Notes under the pieces: generated by a model
Seen by the model: the letters and a program-made list of their open reading frames with translations, nothing else
What the model was told of the DNA's origin: nothing
Databases searched by the model: none
Assembly (NCBI RefSeq): GCF_024972755.1
Contig: NZ_CP087724.1
Location: forward strand, 124,001 to 188,000
From: Halanaeroarchaeum sp. HSR-CO
GTDB taxonomy: Archaea > Halobacteriota > Halobacteria > Halobacteriales > Halobacteriaceae
Direction of reading: 5' to 3'
Length of the DNA: 64,000 bases
Translations under genes and position numbers: made by a program
Shown here: in pieces, positions 21,746 to 31,119 of the stretch
How the letters are laid out: each line of letters begins with the position of its first letter
Position numbering within the stretch: position 1 is the stretch's first letter

Positions 21746-22141
21746 ATGGAGCGGCGAGCCCTCCTCTCCAGTCTTGCGATCGCCCTCAGCGGGTGTCTCG
21801 GTGGCGGTGCGCCACCCCGGTCCAGACTCGCCTGGATATGGCTCCAGAACGACCGCGAGCAGCGATATGCAGTCGACGTGACCGTCGAAGACGATGGCCA
21901 GACGGTGTACGACGATACGTTCCAGCTCCCGCCGGGTAGGTCGGAGACGACCGACGTCCGCGCGACCAGTCCAATCGAGGGGCCAGGTCGATACGTCGTC
22001 CGCGCGACGATGGACGGGGAGACCCGAGCGGTCGACACGACGGACTTCGTCGACGGAGAAGCGGACTGCGTGGGCGTGCGCTTCACCCTCCTCGACAACG
22101 GCAGCGTGGATTACTGGACGAAGTCGATGCAGGAGTGCTAG
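21746..22141 (+). CDS. Tat-type lipoprotein of unknown function
   Basis: A 131-residue protein starting MERRALLSSLAIALSGCLGG: twin arginine near the N-terminus and a lipobox LSGC, so it is probably exported by Tat and lipid-anchored at Cys16. The mature part is a single beta-rich domain (YAVDVTVEDDGQTVYDDTFQ...RYVVRATMDGETRAVDTTDF) with two further Cys (DCVGV and the C-terminal C). This pattern recalls small haloarchaeal lipoproteins with a transthyretin/Ig-like fold. It ends four bases inside the convergent DUF5305 gene. Confidence 0.7.
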   Translation: MERRALLSSLAIALSGCLGGGAPPRSRLAWIWLQNDREQRYAVDVTVEDDGQTVYDDTFQLPPGRSETTDVRATSPIEGPGRYVVRATMDGETRAVDTTDFVDGEADCVGVRFTLLDNGSVDYWTKSMQEC

Positions 22142-23232
22142 CCCTCTTCGAGGGGTTCTGGTGGGTCGTAGGTCACGAGGAGGTCCGGCGTGACCGCGTA
22201 GTATCGCTCGCGGTTCGGTTCCTCAATGACCGCCACGTTCGCGTCGATGGCGAAGTCGACGAGGTCGGCGAAGGACGCGGCCGCCGATGCCTCCCGATCG
22301 AGGACGCTGTCGGGCAGTTCCGCGCGGACCACCCACTCGTCGAACTCGGCTCGCTGATCGCGGTAGTCGAGGAGCGCGCGCTCCTCCGGGGTCAACGCGA
22401 TCGGTTCGTCACGGAACCGCACCGCGGCGAGACCGCCGAGGCCCACGAGCCCGAGGAGCAACACGAGCGGCCCGCCATAGCTCATGGCGGGTCCGTACGC
22501 ACGTGGGACCGTTTCCGTCGTCGTGTCGGTCACCTGCTCGGAGGCCCCATCGGGAGACCCAATCGAGTAAGTGCCGTCCGCCAGGGTGACGGGGAGTTCT
22601 GCGGAGTAGGTCAGCTCGGCCGGCTCACCGTTTGCCGGCGCGGTCGCCGTAACGTCGACGACGATGACGGTACTGAGTTCGCCGGGCGTGCTCCCGAGCG
22701 CGGCCGTGATGTTCTCTCGGCGCTCCATCGCGCGGCTGGCGTTGACGGAGAATTCGAGGGACTCCGTCTCTCCGGCGGCGACGGACTGGGCCTCGGTCGC
22801 GGCGAGGTCGGTTCGATCCGACCAGAAGACAGTCTCCTCGTCGGCGGCCCGGTGGACGAGGTCGGCGTCCAGTTGCACCGCCGCTGGTTCGTCACCGGTC
22901 GGTCGATACTGGGCCGTGAAATCGCCGTCGAGGATCGGCGAAGCCGCCAGGAAGTACGTCGAGCGGTTCTCCAGGGTCGCACCGGTCTGGAACACCGGAT
23001 TCGGGCGGGTCACCGTCGCCGAGTGGTCGAACGACCCGTCGACCGCCCAGGCGGTCTCCGTTGCCGTCGATTCGACGGTGCCCGGGTCGGCGTGCGCCGT
23101 GTAGGTGGCCCACCCACCTGCCAGTACCGCGATCACTGCAACGACCGCCAGCACCGCGAACCAGGACGCGAGTATCGCCCGTACTCGTAATTGCTGCGTG
23201 CCCTCCCCCGTACCGAAGTTGTCCGATTTCAT
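22138..23232 (-). CDS. DUF5305-type membrane protein
   Basis: 364 residues. It has one N-terminal membrane helix (ILASWFAVLAVVAVIAVLAGG), a ~210-residue extracytoplasmic beta-rich domain with NxT/S sequons (ENRST, NASR), a second helix (GGPLVLLLGLVGLGGLAAV), and a ~90-residue cytoplasmic tail ending in EEPNRERYYAVTPDLLVTY. This arrangement is DUF5305, which is repeatedly found beside archaeal SipW-type signal peptidases. It lies 30 bp downstream of the signal peptidase gene on the same strand, so it is probably in one operon. Likely an accessory or assembly factor for the exported proteins; role unproven. Confidence 0.75.
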   Translation of the reverse strand: MKSDNFGTGEGTQQLRVRAILASWFAVLAVVAVIAVLAGGWATYTAHADPGTVESTATETAWAVDGSFDHSATVTRPNPVFQTGATLENRSTYFLAASPILDGDFTAQYRPTGDEPAAVQLDADLVHRAADEETVFWSDRTDLAATEAQSVAAGETESLEFSVNASRAMERRENITAALGSTPGELSTVIVVDVTATAPANGEPAELTYSAELPVTLADGTYSIGSPDGASEQVTDTTTETVPRAYGPAMSYGGPLVLLLGLVGLGGLAAVRFRDEPIALTPEERALLDYRDQRAEFDEWVVRAELPDSVLDREASAAASFADLVDFAIDANVAVIEEPNRERYYAVTPDLLVTYDPPEPLEEG

Positions 23233-23262
23233 ATCACTGATTGGTGTCGATTGTCCCGTTGG

Positions 23263-24453
23263 TCACGAGTTCGATTCCCGCCGGTCGCCGGATGGCGTCA
23301 GGAACGCGAGGAGTCGGCGCCCCACCGATCGGCTGTGTCTCGATTTCCGGCGGCGGAGACGGACGCGCTGGCCGCCGAGCGCAGCGAATCCGAGCCCCAG
23401 TATCACCCCGGCCAGCACCGCGTCGATCGCCAGGATCGGTGCCCACGGGTGGACGCGGTAGAGGCCGTCGATGAGCGATGCCGGCAGCACCGCCAGGTAG
23501 CGGTGCTCCACGAGGTAATTCTGGTAGTACCCCGTCTCCTCGGGTGCCGTCAACGTCACCGCGGCCGTCCCGGCACTCCGGCCCCCGACGTACTGGTGGC
23601 CCGGATCGACGGCCACCCCCTCACTCCCTGGTTCCAGATAGACGTGGACCGGTACGAGCCCGCCGTTTGGAATCCGATAGTCCAGGGTCTTTGACTCGCC
23701 CGTCGGGATGACCGTCGGCCGTTCGGATTCGAATTCGGCGCTGACGACGCCGATCGACTGGGCGCCGGCGGGCGCCACCATGGCGGCCGTCGCCGAGAGG
23801 ACCAGCATCGCCGCCAGGCCCACCACGATTAGTCTCCCGTCGACGCCGTCGTCGTGGCCGACGGTCCGATCGCGTTCCCGGGATGGCCCCCTGCTCAATA
23901 GCAGGTCCACCAGGTACAACGCGATGGAGAGGCCGAGGACGACGTAGGCGAGCCCTTGCCCACCCGCCAGCGACCGCATCCCGGTCAGGGCCACGACCTG
24001 TCGTTGCACCGCCTCGAACGCCCCCTGGACCGCGGTAACACCTGTCCCGAGGTGGGGGAGAACGACCGTCTGGCCGCCGACCTGCAGCGCCACGGCGACG
24101 ATCTGAGCGTCTTTCACCGGTGGCTCATCCCCATCCTGGTCGGTGAACGGGTTCGCGTCACCCTGGGTCAGATAGCCGCGGTCGGTCGTGCCGACGATAC
24201 GGTGCGTCGTGAGACCTCCCTCGTGGAGTTTTTCGGCCCGGAACGTGACGACGTCGCCCGTCTCCGGCGAACCCGCCAGCGCGGCGGGCACGGCGACGAA
24301 CCCGTCACCTGCCTCCATGGTCGGCGCCATACTCCCGGTCTCGACGTACCCGAAAAGTATCGGCGTCCCGAGTACCTGCCCGACGACCAGACCGGCGACG
24401 AGCACGATGACCAGCACCTCCAGGCCGTTCCAGACGAGTCGCCGTGCGTCCAT
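23263..24453 (-). CDS. SipW-type signal peptidase I with extra exported C-terminal domain
   Basis: 396 residues from the ATG at 24453. After one membrane helix (VLVIVLVAGLVVGQVLGTPI) comes the peptidase domain: catalytic Ser in VETGSMAPTMEAGDG, the His that replaces Lys in archaeal/SipW-type enzymes in LTTHRIVGT, and GYLTQGDANPFTD with the acidic residue. A second helix region (residues ~160-180, and ~215-235) leads to a ~110-residue exported beta-rich domain (IGVVSAEFESERPTVIPTGE...) and a last helix with an RLRRRKSRHSR tail. Ordinary signal peptidases are about half this size. The gene sits between the stalked protein and DUF5305. Confidence 0.82.
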   Translation of the reverse strand: MDARRLVWNGLEVLVIVLVAGLVVGQVLGTPILFGYVETGSMAPTMEAGDGFVAVPAALAGSPETGDVVTFRAEKLHEGGLTTHRIVGTTDRGYLTQGDANPFTDQDGDEPPVKDAQIVAVALQVGGQTVVLPHLGTGVTAVQGAFEAVQRQVVALTGMRSLAGGQGLAYVVLGLSIALYLVDLLLSRGPSRERDRTVGHDDGVDGRLIVVGLAAMLVLSATAAMVAPAGAQSIGVVSAEFESERPTVIPTGESKTLDYRIPNGGLVPVHVYLEPGSEGVAVDPGHQYVGGRSAGTAAVTLTAPEETGYYQNYLVEHRYLAVLPASLIDGLYRVHPWAPILAIDAVLAGVILGLGFAALGGQRVRLRRRKSRHSRSVGRRLLAFLTPSGDRRESNS

Positions 24454-24516
24454 AGGGAGTTCTGGAAGTGTCTGACACGTTCGTGGCAATTAGTTAGCGA
24501 CCGACTTACCGGGTGC

Positions 24517-25383
24517 TCAGGGGCGACGACGGCCGACGAGGACCACCGCCAGCGCTGCAAGGAGGCCGACGATGCCCATTGCCAGGGCCCCTCCGGTGAG
24601 GCCGGCCGCGCGCTCGGTGACGAGCGCGATGGTCGGCGACCGCTCGTCCGGCTGGGTCGTCGTCACCGTCGCCACTTCGCCCCCGGTACTCTCGCCGGTG
24701 GTCGTGGCTGACCCCTGCGGTGGTGCGTCTGCTGGCGCGTCCGCGGGTGACGCGCCCGACGAATCGGCGGTCGTCGACGGCGCTATGCTCGTTGCTTCAC
24801 CATCGTCGTCCGAGGATTCCGTCGTGGTACGCTCGGACCCGCTCCACCAGTCACCCGGGGAATCGTCGTCCACATCGTCAGCCGTCGGTTCGGGCTCGGC
24901 GGCCCGCGCGTGGACGGTGAACTCGTCGACCTGCTCGACTGCGTTCCCGTCGGTCGTATCGACGAGCACGCCCACCGCGGCGGTCTCGTTCGGGCCGAGG
25001 GTGATGGCGGTCGAACGCGAGTCGACCGGCTGCCCCGCAGCAGTGAAGGTCAGTCCCTCCCCCTCGTGGGTCAGCCAGACCTCCGCGTACTCGCTCCCGT
25101 TGTAGTGGACGACGAAGACGTCTTCGAGGTGCGTGACGGTGCCCGGATTGACGCCCTCGACGTCTCCGGACGGGTTCGACGACGAGACGTCGATCACGAG
25201 TTCGCCATCAGCGAGGTACGAGTAGTCGCCGTTCTCGCCAGCCGCGGGCTGGAGGTGGACTTGGTTGCCGAGGTCATCGGCGGGCTGGGTCGGGACGAAC
25301 AGCGTCGCGGCCGACGGCACGAGCAGGGCGACGGCTGCGAGGAGGGCGAGACCGACGGCGAGGCGGTGGATGGTGCGGGGCAT
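24517..25383 (-). CDS. Exported, Ser/Thr-rich stalk protein with C-terminal anchor (DUF1102-like)
   Basis: 288 residues from the ATG at 25383. Signal peptide MPRTIHRLAVGLALLAAVAL, then a ~150-residue beta-rich domain (LADGELVIDVSSSNPSGDVE...), then a ~75-residue Ser/Thr/Asp/Glu stalk with many likely O-glycosylation sites. A C-terminal membrane helix ends in GRRRP. The order domain-stalk-anchor is that of a surface-displayed protein. It precedes the signal peptidase gene by 63 bp on the same strand. Inferred role: basal or tip component tethering fibres to the cell. Confidence 0.65.
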   Translation of the reverse strand: MPRTIHRLAVGLALLAAVALLVPSAATLFVPTQPADDLGNQVHLQPAAGENGDYSYLADGELVIDVSSSNPSGDVEGVNPGTVTHLEDVFVVHYNGSEYAEVWLTHEGEGLTFTAAGQPVDSRSTAITLGPNETAAVGVLVDTTDGNAVEQVDEFTVHARAAEPEPTADDVDDDSPGDWWSGSERTTTESSDDDGEATSIAPSTTADSSGASPADAPADAPPQGSATTTGESTGGEVATVTTTQPDERSPTIALVTERAAGLTGGALAMGIVGLLAALAVVLVGRRRP

Positions 25384-25580
25384 GGCCGGGACTGTCTGGC
25401 GCTCTCTCTCTGTCTCGGCCTTCACGGAGTAAGCGCATTGTATTGGGCCGTCTAGTCGGTGGATGGGGGTGCTTGAGAGGGAGACCGGGGGTGCTCGTGG
25501 CCCGCGTTCATCATCGCCGCAACCGTTGCTCGGTGGTCGAGGTCACCGAAAAATCTGGAGTGGGGTGCGGGCGTGGATCG

Positions 25581-26141
25581 TTACGCGTTGTTCTGGGGGT
25601 TCGTTTTCGATGCGTGGATGATAAGCGTTCCACCCGCGTTTTCGATGGGTTCTGCGGTCGTGATCGTCATGTCGACGAAGACGCTTCCGGGTTGGCCCGG
25701 GAACTGGAAGGGCTGGGTCAGGTCGATGCCCTCCGGCGGCACCGCGTGTCCACTCTGGCCGCCCCCTGCGGTTAACTCGACGTCGACGTCGAAGTCCTTC
25801 GGTTCGATCCAGAAGTAGTACTGCCCGGCGCTGCTACCCAGGTCGGCCCAGACCTCGAACACGTCGGCGAACTCGAACGTCGCCTCACCGTTCATCCCCT
25901 GAGACTCGGCCGCCCAGACGTTCCCCGGGTACTCGCCGAAGTTGAGCTCGAGTAATCCGTCTTCGTTGTAGGAGGCGTAGTCGCTGAGTGGGTTCAGTGC
26001 GATCCACGCACTCGCGTCTTCTTCGACCTCTACGGTCACGTTCCGCGTCGCAGACGCCGATTCGAAGGCGCCCGTGCCGATTGCAGCCGCCGACCCGGCG
26101 GCGAGTGATCCAACCGTCGCGAGGAATTTGCGTCGTTGCAT
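25581..26141 (-). CDS. SipW-dependent-type exported protein, paralogue 1
   Basis: 186 residues. The N-terminus MQRRKFLATVGSLAAGSAAA followed by IGTGAFESASA is a twin-Arg/SipW-type signal. The mature protein begins with a strand of alternating residues (TRNVTVEVEEDASAWIALNP) shared in pattern with the three upstream paralogues. The rest is beta-rich (FEFADVFEVWADL..., VDMTITTAEP) and free of Cys, as in TasA/camelysin-type beta-sandwiches. It has its own upstream module (26203-26226). Secreted and probably structural. Confidence 0.75.
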   Translation of the reverse strand: MQRRKFLATVGSLAAGSAAAIGTGAFESASATRNVTVEVEEDASAWIALNPLSDYASYNEDGLLELNFGEYPGNVWAAESQGMNGEATFEFADVFEVWADLGSSAGQYYFWIEPKDFDVDVELTAGGGQSGHAVPPEGIDLTQPFQFPGQPGSVFVDMTITTAEPIENAGGTLIIHASKTNPQNNA

Positions 26142-26202
26142 TGGTTTGGCCTCGTTCGCGTACCCGCTCGAGAGGGCACACTGGTGAGCAATCCACAGAA
26201 AA

Positions 26203-26226
26203 CTACGTAGTATTGATACGATTGCC
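26203..26226 (-). promoter_or_regulatory. Shared upstream element of the SipW-substrate genes, copy 1
   Basis: Plus-strand core GTAGTATTGATACGATT, centred about 73 bp before the start at 26141. The inner GTAT-TG-ATAC is a near-perfect palindrome. A second conserved block, GGGCACAC (26174-26181), lies 33 bp before the ATG. The same pair occurs at matching distance before all four paralogues. Confidence 0.7.
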
Positions 26227-26372
26227 GACCATTCAGCTATTGCCTGCGGTCCCCGTTGAGACCCCCTGCCTCCGATTTCTTTCGATATCGGTGAGTAGGA
26301 CTGCGAGTACGTTCCGAACAGGTTGTCTGTCCCATTGTCTCGGAAAAATCGATGCCGTCTGAGTGGTGTGGG

Positions 26373-27020
26373 TCAGTTCCCGCCCGGTCCCTCGACCGTA
26401 ACGGTGAGGGTTCCGGTCAGGTCGTCGTCGAGCGTCGCCAGCGAGCCGGTGGTGTCGACGTCGATGACGACGTAGATTTCCTGTCCCGCCTCGAAGTCGA
26501 CGGGGTCCGACGTGGGCATGCTACGCGACACCGGGATCGGGGTTCCCAGCTCGTTGTTGGGTGCCTTCAACGACGCCCAGTACCCGTCTGGGTCACCCTC
26601 GCCGAAGGCGTCGAACCGGATGAACGACTCGTTGGAGTACGTGGTGCTGTGGTCGACCCAGCTATCGTCGTCCAGGTCGTACCCCAGGATCAGGTCGTCG
26701 TAATCCTGTCCGTCGTTGTTGACGATCTTGAACGCGTGATCGGCGGCGGGGTCGTCCGGATCACCCCACGTGTAGGTGGAGTTGATATTCACACCATTGT
26801 CGCCGGGCGCCATCAGGTCGATCTCGAGTTCGCCGTCGTCGTTGATCTCGATCCCCGAGTGCCCGCCTGGAACCAGGGCGATCTTGCTATTCAGGTCGTT
26901 TTCCACTTCGACAGTTACGCTGCGGTCCGCGGAGGCCGTCGTGAACGCTCCCGTGCCGATTGCGGCCGCCGACCCGGCGGCGAGCGATCCAACCGTCGCG
27001 AGGAATTTGCGTCGTTGCAT
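26373..27020 (-). CDS. SipW-dependent-type exported protein, paralogue 2
   Basis: 215 residues from the ATG at 27020, where the first 20 residues match paralogue 1 exactly. The signal ends GTGAFTTASA; the mature part starts DRSVTVEVENDLNSKIALVP. Residues around GVNINSTYTWGDPDDPAADH are almost identical to paralogue 3 at both protein and DNA level, suggesting recent duplication or gene conversion. NxT/S sequons (NINST, SNES) suggest glycosylation. The C-terminus ends in a strand, LTGTLTVTVEGPGGN. Likely secreted beta-sandwich subunit. Confidence 0.75.
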   Translation of the reverse strand: MQRRKFLATVGSLAAGSAAAIGTGAFTTASADRSVTVEVENDLNSKIALVPGGHSGIEINDDGELEIDLMAPGDNGVNINSTYTWGDPDDPAADHAFKIVNNDGQDYDDLILGYDLDDDSWVDHSTTYSNESFIRFDAFGEGDPDGYWASLKAPNNELGTPIPVSRSMPTSDPVDFEAGQEIYVVIDVDTTGSLATLDDDLTGTLTVTVEGPGGN

Positions 27021-27083
27021 TGGTAACTCTCCGTTTGTGCGCTCCGTTCGTCGGGAGCACACGGCTAAACTATCATTTGAATA

Positions 27084-27107
27084 CCACGTAGTATTGATAC
27101 GATTACC
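27084..27107 (-). promoter_or_regulatory. Shared upstream element of the SipW-substrate genes, copy 2
   Basis: Plus-strand core GTAGTATTGATACGATT within 27084-27107, 64-87 bp before the ATG at 27020. The companion block GGGAGCACAC is at 27053-27062, again 33 bp before the ATG. Confidence 0.7.
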
Positions 27108-27240
27108 ATCGGTTCAGCGTCCACCTTACCCCGGTTTGGGCATTCTCTGAACGCTCGGTACGGTGACCGTATCGACGGCGGCCGAAGAAATGACGTAATT
27201 TGCACGTGACGACGGGTCTGCTGCGAACGGGCCCGTCCTA

Positions 27241-27921
27241 TCAGGGTGGACTCTCCGGGTACCAGCTATCCTGACTGATGCTCGCGTCCGAGGTGAACTC
27301 GAACGAAGCCGTCCCCGAGAGGTCGTCGTCCGTCGAGGCGTTCGGACCCGTGGTGTCGACGGTCACGACCATATAATATTCCTCACCCGAGTTGAACCGG
27401 TAGCCACCGCCCGGCGCCCAATCGCCGGTCGGTCCCCCCAGAGAGTAGTCCTTGTTGTAACTCTGGTGTGGGTAGTTCTCGGCGGAGGAACCCGTCGGCC
27501 CGTCGCCGGTGTCGAATAGCTGGAAGCGGATGAACGACTGCCCGTTGCCGTGGTTGGTGAGCCAGCCGGTGTTGGTGAAGAAGTAGTTCATCTTCATCAC
27601 CAGCGACTCCTCGTCGTTGTTGACGATCTTGAACGCGTGGTCGGCGGCGGGGTCGTTCGGATCGCCCCAGGTGTACGTGGAGTTGATGTTCACTCCTTCA
27701 CCGTTGGTTCCGGTCAGGTCCAGTTCGAGTTCACCGTCGCCGTTGATCTCGACGTCTTCGTGACTGCCAGGGACGAGCCCGATTTTCGCATTCAGATCGT
27801 TTTCGACTTCCACGGTGACCGTTCGGCCCGCCGAGGCAGTGGTGAACGCGCCGGTTCCGATTGCTGCTGCGGACGCGGCGGTCAGCGATCCGACCGTCGC
27901 GAGGAATTTGCGTCGTTGCAT
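27241..27921 (-). CDS. SipW-dependent-type exported protein, paralogue 3
   Basis: 226 residues, starting MQRRKFLATVGSLTAASAAA with the cleavage region GAFTTASAGRTVTVEVEND. Closest relative is paralogue 2 (same ENDLNAKIGLVPGSH and GVNINSTYTWGDP blocks), but the second half differs (TNTGWLTNHGNGQSFIRF, SSAENYPHQSYNKDYSLGG), so the exposed face has diversified. Ends in DDDLSGTASFEFTSDASISQ. It has its own upstream module. The tandem arrangement and separate promoters allow each subunit to be dosed independently. Confidence 0.75.
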   Translation of the reverse strand: MQRRKFLATVGSLTAASAAAIGTGAFTTASAGRTVTVEVENDLNAKIGLVPGSHEDVEINGDGELELDLTGTNGEGVNINSTYTWGDPNDPAADHAFKIVNNDEESLVMKMNYFFTNTGWLTNHGNGQSFIRFQLFDTGDGPTGSSAENYPHQSYNKDYSLGGPTGDWAPGGGYRFNSGEEYYMVVTVDTTGPNASTDDDLSGTASFEFTSDASISQDSWYPESPP

Positions 27922-27986
27922 TGGTTTTCGACCTTATTGGTGCGCCCAGTCATCCGGGAGCACACGTAATTCCAATCAGGCGAATA

Positions 27987-28010
27987 CGACGTAGTATTGA
28001 CACGATTGCC
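27987..28010 (-). promoter_or_regulatory. Shared upstream element of the SipW-substrate genes, copy 3
   Basis: Plus-strand GTAGTATTGACACGATTGCC at 27991-28010; one change (T to C) from the other copies breaks the inner palindrome. It ends 89 bp before the ATG at 27921. GGGAGCACAC is at 27956-27965, 35 bp before the ATG. Confidence 0.7.
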
Positions 28011-28147
28011 GTCGGTTCAACAAGGTCCTTCGCAGTTATCGTCTCTCTCTATTACCGAGGATTTCGCGAACGTCGGATTGGGAAAACGGTACGGAACGAG
28101 CATTCCTATCGAACCATCGACCAAAACGGAAAAATGGCGAATTTCGA

Positions 28148-28807
28148 TCAGAGGTCGGCCAGGGTTTTGTCGGCCTGGACGAATCCAGCGGTGTACGCGA
28201 TAATTCGGATCTTTCCGCTCACATCGATACTTGAATCGTCCGGGGTGCCGAAGATGTAGAAATCTGGTTCGAGCGCCTCGCCAGTTGTGATGACGTGTTC
28301 ATTATTCGTGGACCACGTCCGAGGATGTGCCGGATTTGAAAGCTCTCCGTTGTACGCAGATGGTGCGCTCGCCGCTCCGTTGATGTTGGGGAAGCTCGTG
28401 GGATCAGCGTTCGTGTAATCGTCATACCACCCACTGTGCATCCCGTTCGCCTTGAGATTATCAAAGAGCGTTCCCTTGAAGTATTGGCCGACTTCGTCGG
28501 GTACTTGCCCACCAGCATCAAGCAGGATAGCGATGGGTTCGTCAGTGGGATTTCTGATCTGGAAAACGTCGTAGAACCGGAAGTCAGCATCCTGGTTCAG
28601 TTCACCGAAATCGAGTTTCAACTGCCCACCGTCGTAGTACGCATACTCACTGTAGTCATTCAATTCGAGGTACGCGGCAGCGTCACCCGTCACGCCGACC
28701 GACACATCGCGCCGTGCGGTAGCTTGTGTGAACGCACCCGTACTCATTGCAGCCGCCGATCCGGCGGTGAGCGATCCAACAGTCGCGAGGAATTTCCGTC
28801 GTTGCAT
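28148..28807 (-). CDS. SipW-dependent-type exported protein, paralogue 4
   Basis: 219 residues from the ATG at 28807 (an in-frame ATG 15 bp upstream is less likely because paralogues start MQRRKF). Signal MQRRKFLATVGSLTAGSAAA and GAFTQATA, then mature RRDVSVGVTGDAAAYLELND. Body has LKLDFGELNQDADFRFYDVF and an ISGK-like C-terminal strand (IDVSGKIRIIAYTAGFV). Codon use is visibly more AT-rich than in its neighbours, hinting at later arrival. It has the same upstream module as the other three. Confidence 0.72.
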   Translation of the reverse strand: MQRRKFLATVGSLTAGSAAAMSTGAFTQATARRDVSVGVTGDAAAYLELNDYSEYAYYDGGQLKLDFGELNQDADFRFYDVFQIRNPTDEPIAILLDAGGQVPDEVGQYFKGTLFDNLKANGMHSGWYDDYTNADPTSFPNINGAASAPSAYNGELSNPAHPRTWSTNNEHVITTGEALEPDFYIFGTPDDSSIDVSGKIRIIAYTAGFVQADKTLADL

Positions 28808-28870
28808 TGGTGTTCTCCCCATTCACGTGCCCGACCGTCCTGGACACACCCAAATCGCTGGGGATGGTCG

Positions 28871-28892
28871 ACAGTAGTATTGATACGATTGC
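28871..28892 (-). promoter_or_regulatory. Shared upstream element of the SipW-substrate genes, copy 4
   Basis: Plus-strand GTAGTATTGATACGATTGC at 28874-28892, 64-85 bp before the ATG at 28807. The companion block is GGACACAC at 28842-28849, 35 bp before the ATG. This gene is the most diverged of the four, yet the element is intact. Confidence 0.7.
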
Positions 28893-29052
28893 GGGTAGAG
28901 TAAGCGAGGCTTGACGGTATATTGCCGACCTGCAACGGTGTCATATATACGGCTTACCACTTGTTAGCAACTATTTGACGACATCAGGCTACCACATACC
29001 TGATCGAAGCCCCTCCATAGCAATGTGCCCTACCTCGTAACTATCTCGTGAC

Positions 29053-29631
29053 GTGTCTACCACAACGGGTGCACCGGGGGGTGCGGTTCAGGAAGGGCCG
29101 TCCGAGGACGACCTGTTCGAGATCCTCTCGAACCGGCGTCGTCGCTACGTGGTCCACGCGCTGGAGCAGGCCGACGAGCCGATGCAGATCGGGGAGGTCG
29201 CCGAGCGGGTGGCGGCGTGGGAGTACGACGTCGACGAGTCTGAACTCTCCTACGACGAGCGAAAGCGGGTCTATACGGCCCTCCAGCAGAGCCACCTCCC
29301 GAAGATGGACGATATCGGTATCGTGGAGTACGACAAGAATCGGGGGACGATCGAGCCACAACCGGGGCTTGCGGAGGTCGACGTCTACATAGACGTGGTG
29401 TCGGGCCGGGAGATCCCCTGGAGCCAGTACTACCTGGGGCTCGCCGGGCTGGCGCTGGCCCTCGTCGCCGCGGTGGGGGCCGGGCTCTGGCCGCTCGAGG
29501 CGATTCCCGAAATCGGGTGGATGGCGGCCATCACAGTCTCGTTCGGCGTCTCGGCGGCGATTCACGCCTACTTCGATCGGACGTCGCGGCTCGGGGCCCC
29601 GGGCGCGCCTCCGGAACGGCTCAGGAGGTAA
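29053..29631 (+). CDS. Membrane-anchored winged-helix-type regulator (DUF7344-like)
   Basis: 192 residues from a GTG start. The N-terminal ~85 residues (DDLFEILSNRRRRYVVHALE, then IGEVAERVAAWEYD and RKRVYTALQQSHLPKMDDIG) are a winged-helix domain of the haloarchaeal DUF7344 kind. Two membrane helices follow (QYYLGLAGLALALVAAVGAG and WMAAITVSFGVSAAIHAYF). Such one-component membrane regulators are common beside haloarchaeal surface gene clusters. It diverges from the paralogue array and is followed by an exported protein gene 3 bp later. Candidate regulator of the shared upstream module; this is inference. Confidence 0.72.
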   Translation: MSTTTGAPGGAVQEGPSEDDLFEILSNRRRRYVVHALEQADEPMQIGEVAERVAAWEYDVDESELSYDERKRVYTALQQSHLPKMDDIGIVEYDKNRGTIEPQPGLAEVDVYIDVVSGREIPWSQYYLGLAGLALALVAAVGAGLWPLEAIPEIGWMAAITVSFGVSAAIHAYFDRTSRLGAPGAPPERLRR

Positions 29632-29634
29632 GCC

Positions 29635-30408
29635 ATGAGTGCACTGAAGACCCTCAGTTTCGCGCTGGCCGTCGTGGCGGTGACGGGATTGCTCGTCGGG
29701 TCGATCGGGTTCGGGAGCGTGGCCGCCGAGCGTGGGGTGTCGGTCGCGGTCGTCGACGACGACAGCGCGTACGTCGGGTATGAATCGAGCGATACGACCG
29801 TCGCCGATGGGGACCGGGTCGCCGTCGTCACCGTCACGAACCGACTGTTCGACGACGTCTCGGTGACGAACGTCTCCGTCGAGTCCGAGTCGGTCACGTT
29901 CGCGGACCTGAGCGAACCCACGCTGGCGCCGGGCGAGGCGGCGGCCATCGAGGGAACGGTCGACTGTTCGCCGGGTGACGCCGAGACCGTCGAGGTCACG
30001 GTCACGCTCGAAGGGGAGGGCGTGACCGCGGCCATCTACGGCGACACGGTGACGCGCGAATTCGCGGTCTCCTGTGCGGACACGACCCCGTCCGCGACGT
30101 ACCTGACCGACGGCGACGTCGAATTGGACGATTCGCCAGTCGCGGAGACCGACGTCACCTACTGGACGACCAGCACGAACGACACCCAGGACGAGCGGCC
30201 GTTCACCGAGCAGTCCCTGACCGGATTCCAGACGAACCAGACACTCCAGTCCCAGGTCCAGGGTAGTCCGAGCGCCGTGGCGCTGTACGTGCCCGCCGTC
30301 GACGTGACCTACGTCCACCCCGAGTTCGACCGCGAGAACGAGACTATCGACTCGTGGGAGGGCGGTGACGCGCAGGTCGTCGACGGCGAGCTCGACCTCG
30401 GCTCCTGA
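29635..30408 (+). CDS. Exported protein with SipW-substrate-like mature N-terminus
   Basis: 257 residues. Signal peptide LKTLSFALAVVAVTGLLVGS followed by FGSVAAERGVSVAVVDDDSA. The mature start repeats the R-x-V-x-V-x-V-x-x-D-x-x-A-[YW] pattern of the four SipW-type paralogues. A first beta-domain (to ~residue 145, with two Cys in VDCSPGD and VSCADTT that may form a disulphide) is followed by a second acidic region with NET and NQT sequons. No C-terminal anchor. The start lies 3 bp after the regulator gene, so the pair is an operon. Fifth candidate subunit. Confidence 0.65.
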   Translation: MSALKTLSFALAVVAVTGLLVGSIGFGSVAAERGVSVAVVDDDSAYVGYESSDTTVADGDRVAVVTVTNRLFDDVSVTNVSVESESVTFADLSEPTLAPGEAAAIEGTVDCSPGDAETVEVTVTLEGEGVTAAIYGDTVTREFAVSCADTTPSATYLTDGDVELDDSPVAETDVTYWTTSTNDTQDERPFTEQSLTGFQTNQTLQSQVQGSPSAVALYVPAVDVTYVHPEFDRENETIDSWEGGDAQVVDGELDLGS

Positions 30409-30516
30409 CGGGGGACCGCCGACGACCCCGCGCGGGCGTGGCCGGCCCGCTTGCGAACCAGCGTCCCGAACGAGGCAAACACCTATATCTCCGTAGCGTT
30501 CAGTTGCAGGCCATCG

Positions 30517-31119
30517 ATGGACGAGAAGACCGAGGAACTCCGCGACATCTTCATGCAGGTGAGCGACGACGCCGAGGTCACCGAGCGACAGTCCGAGTCC
30601 CGAGGATCGCTCGTCGACGACGTGGACGTCGCGGAGCGGCTGGTCGAGATCATCGGGCGCATGCGGGCCGACCTCGGGTTCGATACGACCCTCGATGACG
30701 AGGCCCTGGTGACCGTGGTCCGGGGGTTCTACGAGGGCGATTCCGACGCCGAGATCGCCAGGGAACTGGACGAGGAGACGGTGGCGAAGACGGTCGGTCG
30801 CGCTCGCATCGACCTCCATCTTCTCCGGGATCGGGACGAGGAGGCCCCATTCGCCCTCGAGGAACTCGAAGACGCACTCGATTCCGGTTCCTCGGTTTCG
30901 GAGACAGCAGCGGAACTGGGCGTCAGCGAATCGACGGTGCGCCGGTACCGACGAGTTCTCGAGGCGAAACGGGAGATTCGTCAGGTGAACGACCGATACC
31001 GTGACGACTTCGAGGACCTCCTCGAGGACCGCGGTCTCGCGGAGCAGATGACCCGCGACGTACTCGAGACGGGTCTCGAGGGTGCCATCGAGGGCCAGGA
31101 GACGGACACCCAGCTGTGA
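30517..31119 (+). CDS. Conditioned medium-induced protein 4-like HTH protein
   Basis: 200 residues from the ATG at 30517 (MDEKTEELRDIFMQVSDDAE), preceded by a TATA-like CCTATATCT at 30482-30490, about 27-35 bp upstream (leaderless fit). The centre has ARELDEETVAKTVGRARIDLHLLRD. Near residue 125-150 is a helix-turn-helix, SVSETAAELGVSESTVRRYRRVLEAK. The N- and C-terminal parts are acidic helices. I recall this family being annotated as conditioned medium-induced protein 4 in haloarchaea; a role in density-dependent regulation would fit but is not established here. Confidence 0.65.
   Translation: MDEKTEELRDIFMQVSDDAEVTERQSESRGSLVDDVDVAERLVEIIGRMRADLGFDTTLDDEALVTVVRGFYEGDSDAEIARELDEETVAKTVGRARIDLHLLRDRDEEAPFALEELEDALDSGSSVSETAAELGVSESTVRRYRRVLEAKREIRQVNDRYRDDFEDLLEDRGLAEQMTRDVLETGLEGAIEGQETDTQL

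Follow-up and report, generated by a model that had tools for sequence, protein, structure and literature searches.

Stabilising stem-loops occur at the 5' ends of some bacterial mRNAs, ompA and aprE among them. In haloarchaea the majority of mRNAs have no leader (in Haloferax volcanii 72%; PMC4983044), and stem-loops in a haloarchaeal 5' untranslated region (5'UTR) have been described that lower translation, which is abolished when the stem-loop is stabilised and becomes constitutive when it is destabilised (Brenneis and Soppa 2009, PMC2636863). The canonical haloarchaeal promoter combines a TATA box (TTWT), a TFB-recognition element (BRE; CGAAA) and a -10 element (WW) (PMC4983044), and the gas-vesicle promoters activated by GvpE carry an upstream activating sequence next to the BRE (PMC4390858). 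Here we analyze the DNA ahead of four tandem genes for SipW-type exported proteins, hereafter fibre genes, in a window of 64,000 nt from Halanaeroarchaeum sp. HSR-CO (NZ_CP087724.1, 124,001-188,000; coordinates are those of the window unless a locus is named). Computation identifies a conserved block 1, a hairpin, a distance between them that is fixed across genera, base pairing of the RNA type and a linked gene of the DUF7344 family. We consider it likely, from sequence comparison, that this leader module combines a non-canonical promoter with an mRNA hairpin locked to the transcription start. The literature that we searched on Taf/SipW fibres, their promoters and tRNA-like elements in haloarchaeal operons does not describe the module (subscription papers and preprints were outside the scope of this search), and the architecture looks common to several haloarchaeal families.

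The fibre genes all lie on the minus strand, with ATG codons at 28807, 27921, 27020 and 26141. Their products start with MQRRKFLATVGSL, and each gene is preceded by ~220-235 nt of non-coding DNA.

28151-28807, minus strand: SipW-type fibre gene 1, weak TafE/TafA match below cut-off
27244-27921, minus strand: SipW-type fibre gene 2, TafE/TafA profile match below cut-off
26376-27020, minus strand: SipW-type fibre gene 3, TafE/TafA profile match below cut-off
25584-26141, minus strand: SipW-type fibre gene 4, DUF1102-like, profile match below cut-off

Block 1 reads AATCGTRTCAATACTAC on the coding strand and stands ahead of all four fibre genes. The query GTAGTATTGATACGATT has four matches in the window, one of them with a single T to C change (27991-28007), where shuffled sequences predict 0.02 matches at up to three mismatches. 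The bipartite module that a preliminary description, made from the sequence alone, had placed ahead of all four SipW-substrate genes is thus real. Its distances are also kept: block 1 lies 66-82 (26141), 68-84 (27020), 70-86 (27921) and 67-83 nt (28807) upstream of the ATG, close to the 62-89 reported.

28874-28890, minus strand: block 1 copy 1, shuffle-tested motif match; core box AATACTA at 28875-28881, defined from relatives
27991-28007, minus strand: block 1 copy 2 (AATCGTGTCAATACTAC), motif match with one change
27088-27104, minus strand: block 1 copy 3, motif match
26207-26223, minus strand: block 1 copy 4, motif match

Elsewhere in the genome a scan returned two weaker matches to block 1, neither of them ahead of a SipW-type gene. 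Block 1 was rejected as the motif of a wide regulon: 89 of 392 genomes of the order hold a match (up to two mismatches, beyond the home family), and among 30 loci examined (L015-L044) none precedes a SipW-type gene. As far as the sequences go, the exact 17-mer is local and the core alone is more widespread.

The most plausible reading of block 1 is a non-canonical core promoter, in which the box TCAATACTA would take the place of TATA. It lacks the CGAAA-type BRE upstream of a TTWT-type TATA that marks canonical haloarchaeal promoters, in keeping with the earlier remark that no standard TATA box is obvious; copy 4 has a TTTT further downstream of the box. One could instead see in the GTAT-N2-ATAC palindrome of block 1 the site of a regulator and in a TATA-like GTATTC or GTTTTC further downstream the core promoter. 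The palindrome is exact in three of the four copies (the remaining copy has GTGT), and GTATTC or GTTTTC does occur 11-16 nt downstream of block 1 in three copies. Copy 1 has neither hexamer, however, the downstream stretch is poorly conserved, and a start 27 nt after the hexamer would fall within the hairpin arm described below. The GTAT half is moreover lost in relatives, of which Halolamina and Halorubrum retain just TCAATAC/TCATAAC, and positions -7 to -3 of the box, where the window copies have CGTATC/CGTGTC, carry little information. We therefore regard this alternative as improbable, and the suggestion that the palindrome binds a dimeric regulator, correct as to its presence in three copies, finds no support because its left half is not kept.

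The second block of the preliminary description fares differently. Its 10-mer GGGAGCACAC, of which similar blocks had been reported for all copies, has exact matches in just copies 2 and 3 (27956-27965 and 27053-27062), while copy 4 has two mismatches and copy 1 more than two; at up to two mismatches it has 56 matches in the window against 74.7 expected, a count below expectation that rules it out as an independent motif. What is constant in block 2 is its position and a pairing partner that had been overlooked. The 10-mer forms the 5' arm of an inverted repeat resembling GTGTGCTCC-N8-GGAGCGCAC, which is found in all four copies, with the complementary arm 8-9 nt after block 2 and the ribosome-binding site a few nt later. 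Block 2 probably marks the transcription start, as had been proposed, and is the arm of an RNA stem in place of the second DNA site that had also been suggested. Folding and comparison predict the following hairpins in the 5'UTRs.

28825-28849, minus strand: hairpin copy 1 (GTGTGTCC ... GGGCACGT), the weakest of the four
27940-27963, minus strand: hairpin copy 2 (GTGCTCCCGG ... CTGGGCGCAC), one U.C mismatch
27037-27062, minus strand: hairpin copy 3 (GTGTGCTCC ... GGAGCGCAC), 9 bp
26158-26181, minus strand: hairpin copy 4 (GTGTGCCC ... GGGTACGC), 8 bp

Only copy 3 folds clearly better than its shuffles (z -2.75), and the case for the window hairpins rests on comparison with relatives. A model built from relatives alone returns 12 matches in 3.6 kb, among which the four window copies rank 1, 2, 3 and 5 and all extend exactly to their ATG. 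A search of Rfam 15 with positions 22000-31000 of the window and seven related loci gave nothing near the gathering score.

A profile of 11 fibre proteins found relatives in 125 of 194 genomes of the order, and 80 regions were fetched. Leading genes were defined as having no called gene within 90 nt upstream, and folding was measured in the 70 nt before the start. The 90 leading SipW-type genes have a mean fold z of -1.23, against -0.17 for 190 control leading genes from the same regions and the window, which are mechanical, uncurated open reading frames (p = 7e-9), and -0.54 for 81 internal SipW genes (p = 0.001). The box, written as AATAC, ATAAC or ATTAC followed by any base and A, precedes 58 of the 90 leading SipW-type genes and 23 of the 190 other leading genes (Fisher p = 9e-19).

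When 57 leads from 20 genera are lined up at the box, with genus weighting, TC at -11/-10, CA at -31/-30 and TG at +32/+33 are conserved, and AT/GG at +22 to +25 weakly so. Bases at +29 to +34 open a pair with a probability of 0.14-0.24, those at +35 to +41 with one of 0.54-0.62. The jump at +35, from 0.20 to 0.54, amounts to a step of 0.33, where 60 randomly shifted anchors reach at most 0.169; a rise above 0.2 occurs there in 14 of the 20 genera, from five families of the order (p = 2.4e-4), and in seven of nine held-out boxed leads the probability rises at +35 or +36. The hairpin keeps a fixed distance from the box, whereas the spacing of box and ATG varies from ~50 to 140 nt. AT content aligned on the hairpin base given by RNAfold shows only a weak peak, since RNAfold picks differing outer pairs, and the alignment on the box is clearer. 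Control genes that have a box show, as a group, no such hairpin (opening probability 0.15 at +35, n = 19), so that promoter and hairpin are separable. We take the locked position to mean that transcription would start near +33 and that the mRNA would begin with the hairpin; TC at -11/-10, AT/GG at +22 to +25 and TG at +32/+33 are as expected for such a start. The stem would lie inside the transcript, judging only by its distance from the box. An AATACNA box is also carried by TafF-like genes, at two related loci (L080, L075) and in the window:

25438-25444, minus strand: AATACAA box ahead of the TafF-like gene, without hairpin, from sequence

The module was also found before orthologues in related genomes and so withstands the refuting condition named in the preliminary description. 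In Halobacterium relatives a version of the 17-mer that differs at no more than two positions precedes the leading gene of the fibre operon, and downstream of it comes a longer hairpin, GTGAGCGCTC ... GGGAGTGCAC, whose upper stem changes on both sides and whose loop is GCGGT-like. In the window the module is repeated before each of the four subunit genes, whereas relatives have it ahead of the operon's first gene; the window arrangement looks as if an operon had been split into single units. An origin of the likeness between window copies in recent tandem duplication or gene conversion alone would fit the first ~70 coding nt, which are near-identical as well in the four genes. We nevertheless give this explanation very little credence: the spacers among block 1, hairpin and ATG have diverged and block 1 has not, the protein of gene 4 is only 38-39% identical to the other fibre proteins, and the module is conserved in other genera.

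The same relatives bear on the nature of the inverted repeat, which could be a DNA operator over the start site. A dimeric repressor, perhaps the DUF7344 protein, would then occupy it, and the RNA fold would be incidental. The arms are indeed partly conserved in sequence, as GTGAGCGCTC / GGGAGTGCAC in Halobacterium, and a winged helix-turn-helix gene adjoins. The stem was examined in 16 leaders from Halobacterium, Halospeciosus and Halolamina, in an alignment blind to structure: 86.2% of cells are paired, against at most 62.9% in slid versions, and the number of further pair types is attained in none of 500 shuffles. Over two alignments the non-Watson-Crick cells of the stem are G.U in 77 cases and A.C in six, and in the lower stem, excluding the sequence that gave the structure, 28 against one, with the caution that the structures derive from RNA folding of the same sequences, which favours G.U. 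A DNA palindrome predicts no such difference, so these counts indicate base pairing under RNA selection, with the repeat acting as RNA. Arm spacing also varies, from an 8-nt loop in the window to ~20 nt in Halobacterium, where an additional upper stem is paired, and other genera place hairpins of quite different sequence at the same position. An operator over the start site is accordingly unlikely in our view, and we keep to the hairpin. Some leaders seem to have two stems: in those of family f8 (L148, L151, L154, L170) a 5'-end hairpin GATCCCCGC..GCGGGGATC is accompanied by a second hairpin before the start codon.

A leader model, R1, was tested on 100 loci. Outside its training set it has 12 matches at E<0.1, of which 11 stop at the ATG of a SipW-type gene, and in 26 genomes of the family its 11 matches at E<1e-9 are all leaders already known.

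Several observations weigh against a promoter coupled to a start-locked hairpin. In the window, hairpin copy 1 is weak, no better than its shuffles (z 0.17) and not the minimum-energy fold of a longer stretch, and the TC at -11/-10 is absent from all four copies. Among the relatives, 32 of the 90 SipW leads have no box, six of the 20 genera show no rise above 0.2 at +35, and Halorubrum leaders are paired without significant covariation, which is uninformative there. TTTA(A/T) is rarer in the leads than in controls (5 of 90 against 22 of 190), though not significantly so (p = 0.13). One strong R1 match, inside a coding region (L137:2117-2178), is false. In addition, many of the sequences are related, which makes the single-gene p-values too small, and the genes on which the box pattern was counted overlap with those from which it had been picked by eye; the fairer figure is therefore 9 of 22 leads in named genomes unused for discovery, from a separate scan (p = 0.0017).

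A promoter without the usual BRE and TATA would be weak alone, and block 1 probably depends on an activator bound just upstream. Immediately ahead of the box, Halobacterium and Halolamina have a palindrome YTGAA-N4/5-TTCAR, whose half-sites are spaced by one helical turn and which is a better candidate for the operator than GTAT-N2-ATAC. Copies 2-4 of the window hold its left half, copy 1 neither half, and the right half is absent in the window. The half-sites, recognised from relatives, and the candidate regulator are:

28016-28020, minus strand: operator-like left half-site TTGAA before copy 2
27113-27117, minus strand: operator-like left half-site CTGAA before copy 3
26232-26236, minus strand: operator-like left half-site CTGAA before copy 4
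29053-29628, plus strand: DUF7344 protein, divergent from gene 1, candidate regulator (profile match and predicted structure)

The product of 29053-29628 belongs to DUF7344 (Pfam PF24035; 110.7 bits against a gathering score of 27.8). Of the 80 fetched regions 57 have a gene of this family, as do 20 of 25 named loci, and it is divergent from the lead gene in the loci compared by coordinates. The predicted structure (predicted local distance difference test score 85) has a winged helix at residues 18-102 and two long C-terminal helices that probably span the membrane. In many genomes, then, homologues of a predicted membrane-anchored regulator stand divergent from surface-fibre genes. Foldseek returned the winged helices of MukE, HxlR (YodB), MarR and Fur, none of them significant, and a sequence search against solved structures gave nothing useful. 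Other DUF7344 genes of this genome, in the three regions examined, do not stand beside SipW-type genes. The DUF7344 winged-helix protein is the best candidate for the activator, and its action here we infer, as we do the transcription start, the activator's site and the role of the hairpin.

Each of the four fibre genes would thus be served by its own leader module. An activator, most plausibly the neighbouring DUF7344 protein, would bind just upstream of the box, and transcription would start ~33 nt downstream of it, at the GTGTG of the former block 2. The mRNA would then open with a 5'-end hairpin of ~25 nt, with the ribosome-binding site and the ATG a few nt on. Because the hairpin ends so close to the ribosome-binding site, it would most likely set translation and may also shield the 5' end from decay. 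By analogy with the known haloarchaeal 5'UTR stem-loops, we give lowered translation a little under an even chance; protection of the 5' end is our second choice and rather doubtful, and the hairpin is a possible binding site for a protein, for example in feedback by a subunit.

In relatives, the later genes of fibre operons are preceded by a different element, CCCAC-(0-4 nt)-GG-...-CGGCGGTTCGAYTCCGCCG-GTGGG, which corresponds to a T-arm stacked on an acceptor-like stem (for example L120:4352-4389(+), L120:6822-6859(+), L124:3033-3071(-) and L192:2938-2974(+)). In tRNA, the GG of the D-loop docks on the T-loop. The 23-mer core of the tRNA-like element occurs in 55 of 194 genomes and its reversed control in none. 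The complementary 5' strand is present in 46 of 53 elements, against 16% for shuffled 5-mers, with a GG within 8 nt after it in all 46; among 24 aligned copies of these 46, 99.6% of cells are paired, with compensating changes in two pairs. A loose pattern classes the following gene as SipW-like in 35 of the 53 cases and not in three, and in 15 it is uncalled, part of these loci having been fetched because of their SipW genes. ARAGORN found no tRNA in nine fibre loci, and Rfam none in seven.

A model of the element, R2, matches 63 of 145 genomes of the class, and a scan of the window's genome with it did not find the element. Nine chosen loci among the weaker R2 matches are 23S-5S rRNA spacers, with 12 matches that each end 3 nt before the 5S rRNA (one of these distances is extrapolated, as the match to 5S starts there from position 7), so that some of the 63 genomes may hold an rRNA copy alone. 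The R2 matches include these rRNA copies of the tRNA-like element:

L279:244-282
L283:1201-1238
L284:1177-1214

In H. volcanii, 5S rRNA acquires its 5' end through tRNase Z processing at a tRNA-like structure (PMC3296008, citing Hoelzle 2008). Going by sequence likeness, fibre operons appear to reuse this known processing site between cistrons, and the element may cut their transcripts between genes. We tentatively propose, at somewhat less than even odds, that SipW-fibre genes use two RNA devices, a start-locked hairpin on the leading gene and an intercistronic tRNA-like tRNase Z site that releases mRNAs with set subunit ratios, and that the window's lineage has a promoter and hairpin for each subunit gene instead.

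Further genes lie around the fibre genes:

24520-25425, minus strand: TafF-like / DUF1102 protein, under the TafF cut-off
23266-24489, minus strand: SipW-like signal peptidase, profile match
29635-30405, plus strand: TafC-like protein, under cut-off

If our reading holds, the module would be a clear archaeal case of coupled transcriptional and post-transcriptional control across several haloarchaeal families. A structured leader kept at constant spacing from a non-standard promoter is a likely control device for surface fibres, and it offers testable sites, a candidate regulator and a leader-based way to find fibre genes. The window proteins resemble the Taf fimbrial proteins (NCBIfam TafA/C/E/F) in signal peptide type, gene set and neighbourhood, but all lie far under the curated cut-offs; the four fibre proteins score 48.4, 43.5, 44.1 and 51.5 bits against the TafE/TafA equivalog cut-off (155 for TafE). 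With ompA and aprE the fibre genes share a hairpin (here predicted) at or near +1 and abundant exported products, although those examples are bacterial.

Turning to haloarchaeal systems, the canonical promoter is alike in having a box ~33-27 nt before the start (here the predicted one) and an AT-rich pair ~10 nt before it, and unlike in that the box here is AATACNA, without CGAAA upstream. The stem-loops of PMC2636863 likewise lie in leaders upstream of haloarchaeal start codons; they concern single genes and were studied in vivo, whereas here a gene family carries a computed stem-loop at a fixed place after the box. The GvpE-activated promoters are, by analogy, the nearest described counterpart: they too serve structural-protein genes and have divergent regulator genes, and their paired half-sites adjoining the core promoter have candidate counterparts here. 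In the GvpE type two 8-nt half-sites, 4 nt apart, lie next to the BRE, and here the corresponding candidate is YTGAA-N4/5-TTCAR in Halobacterium and Halolamina. GvpE is leucine-zipper-like and the candidate here a predicted membrane-anchored winged helix. The p-gvpA leader measures 20 nt, while the fibre genes have a predicted hairpin leader, and their activation is suggested by analogy only.

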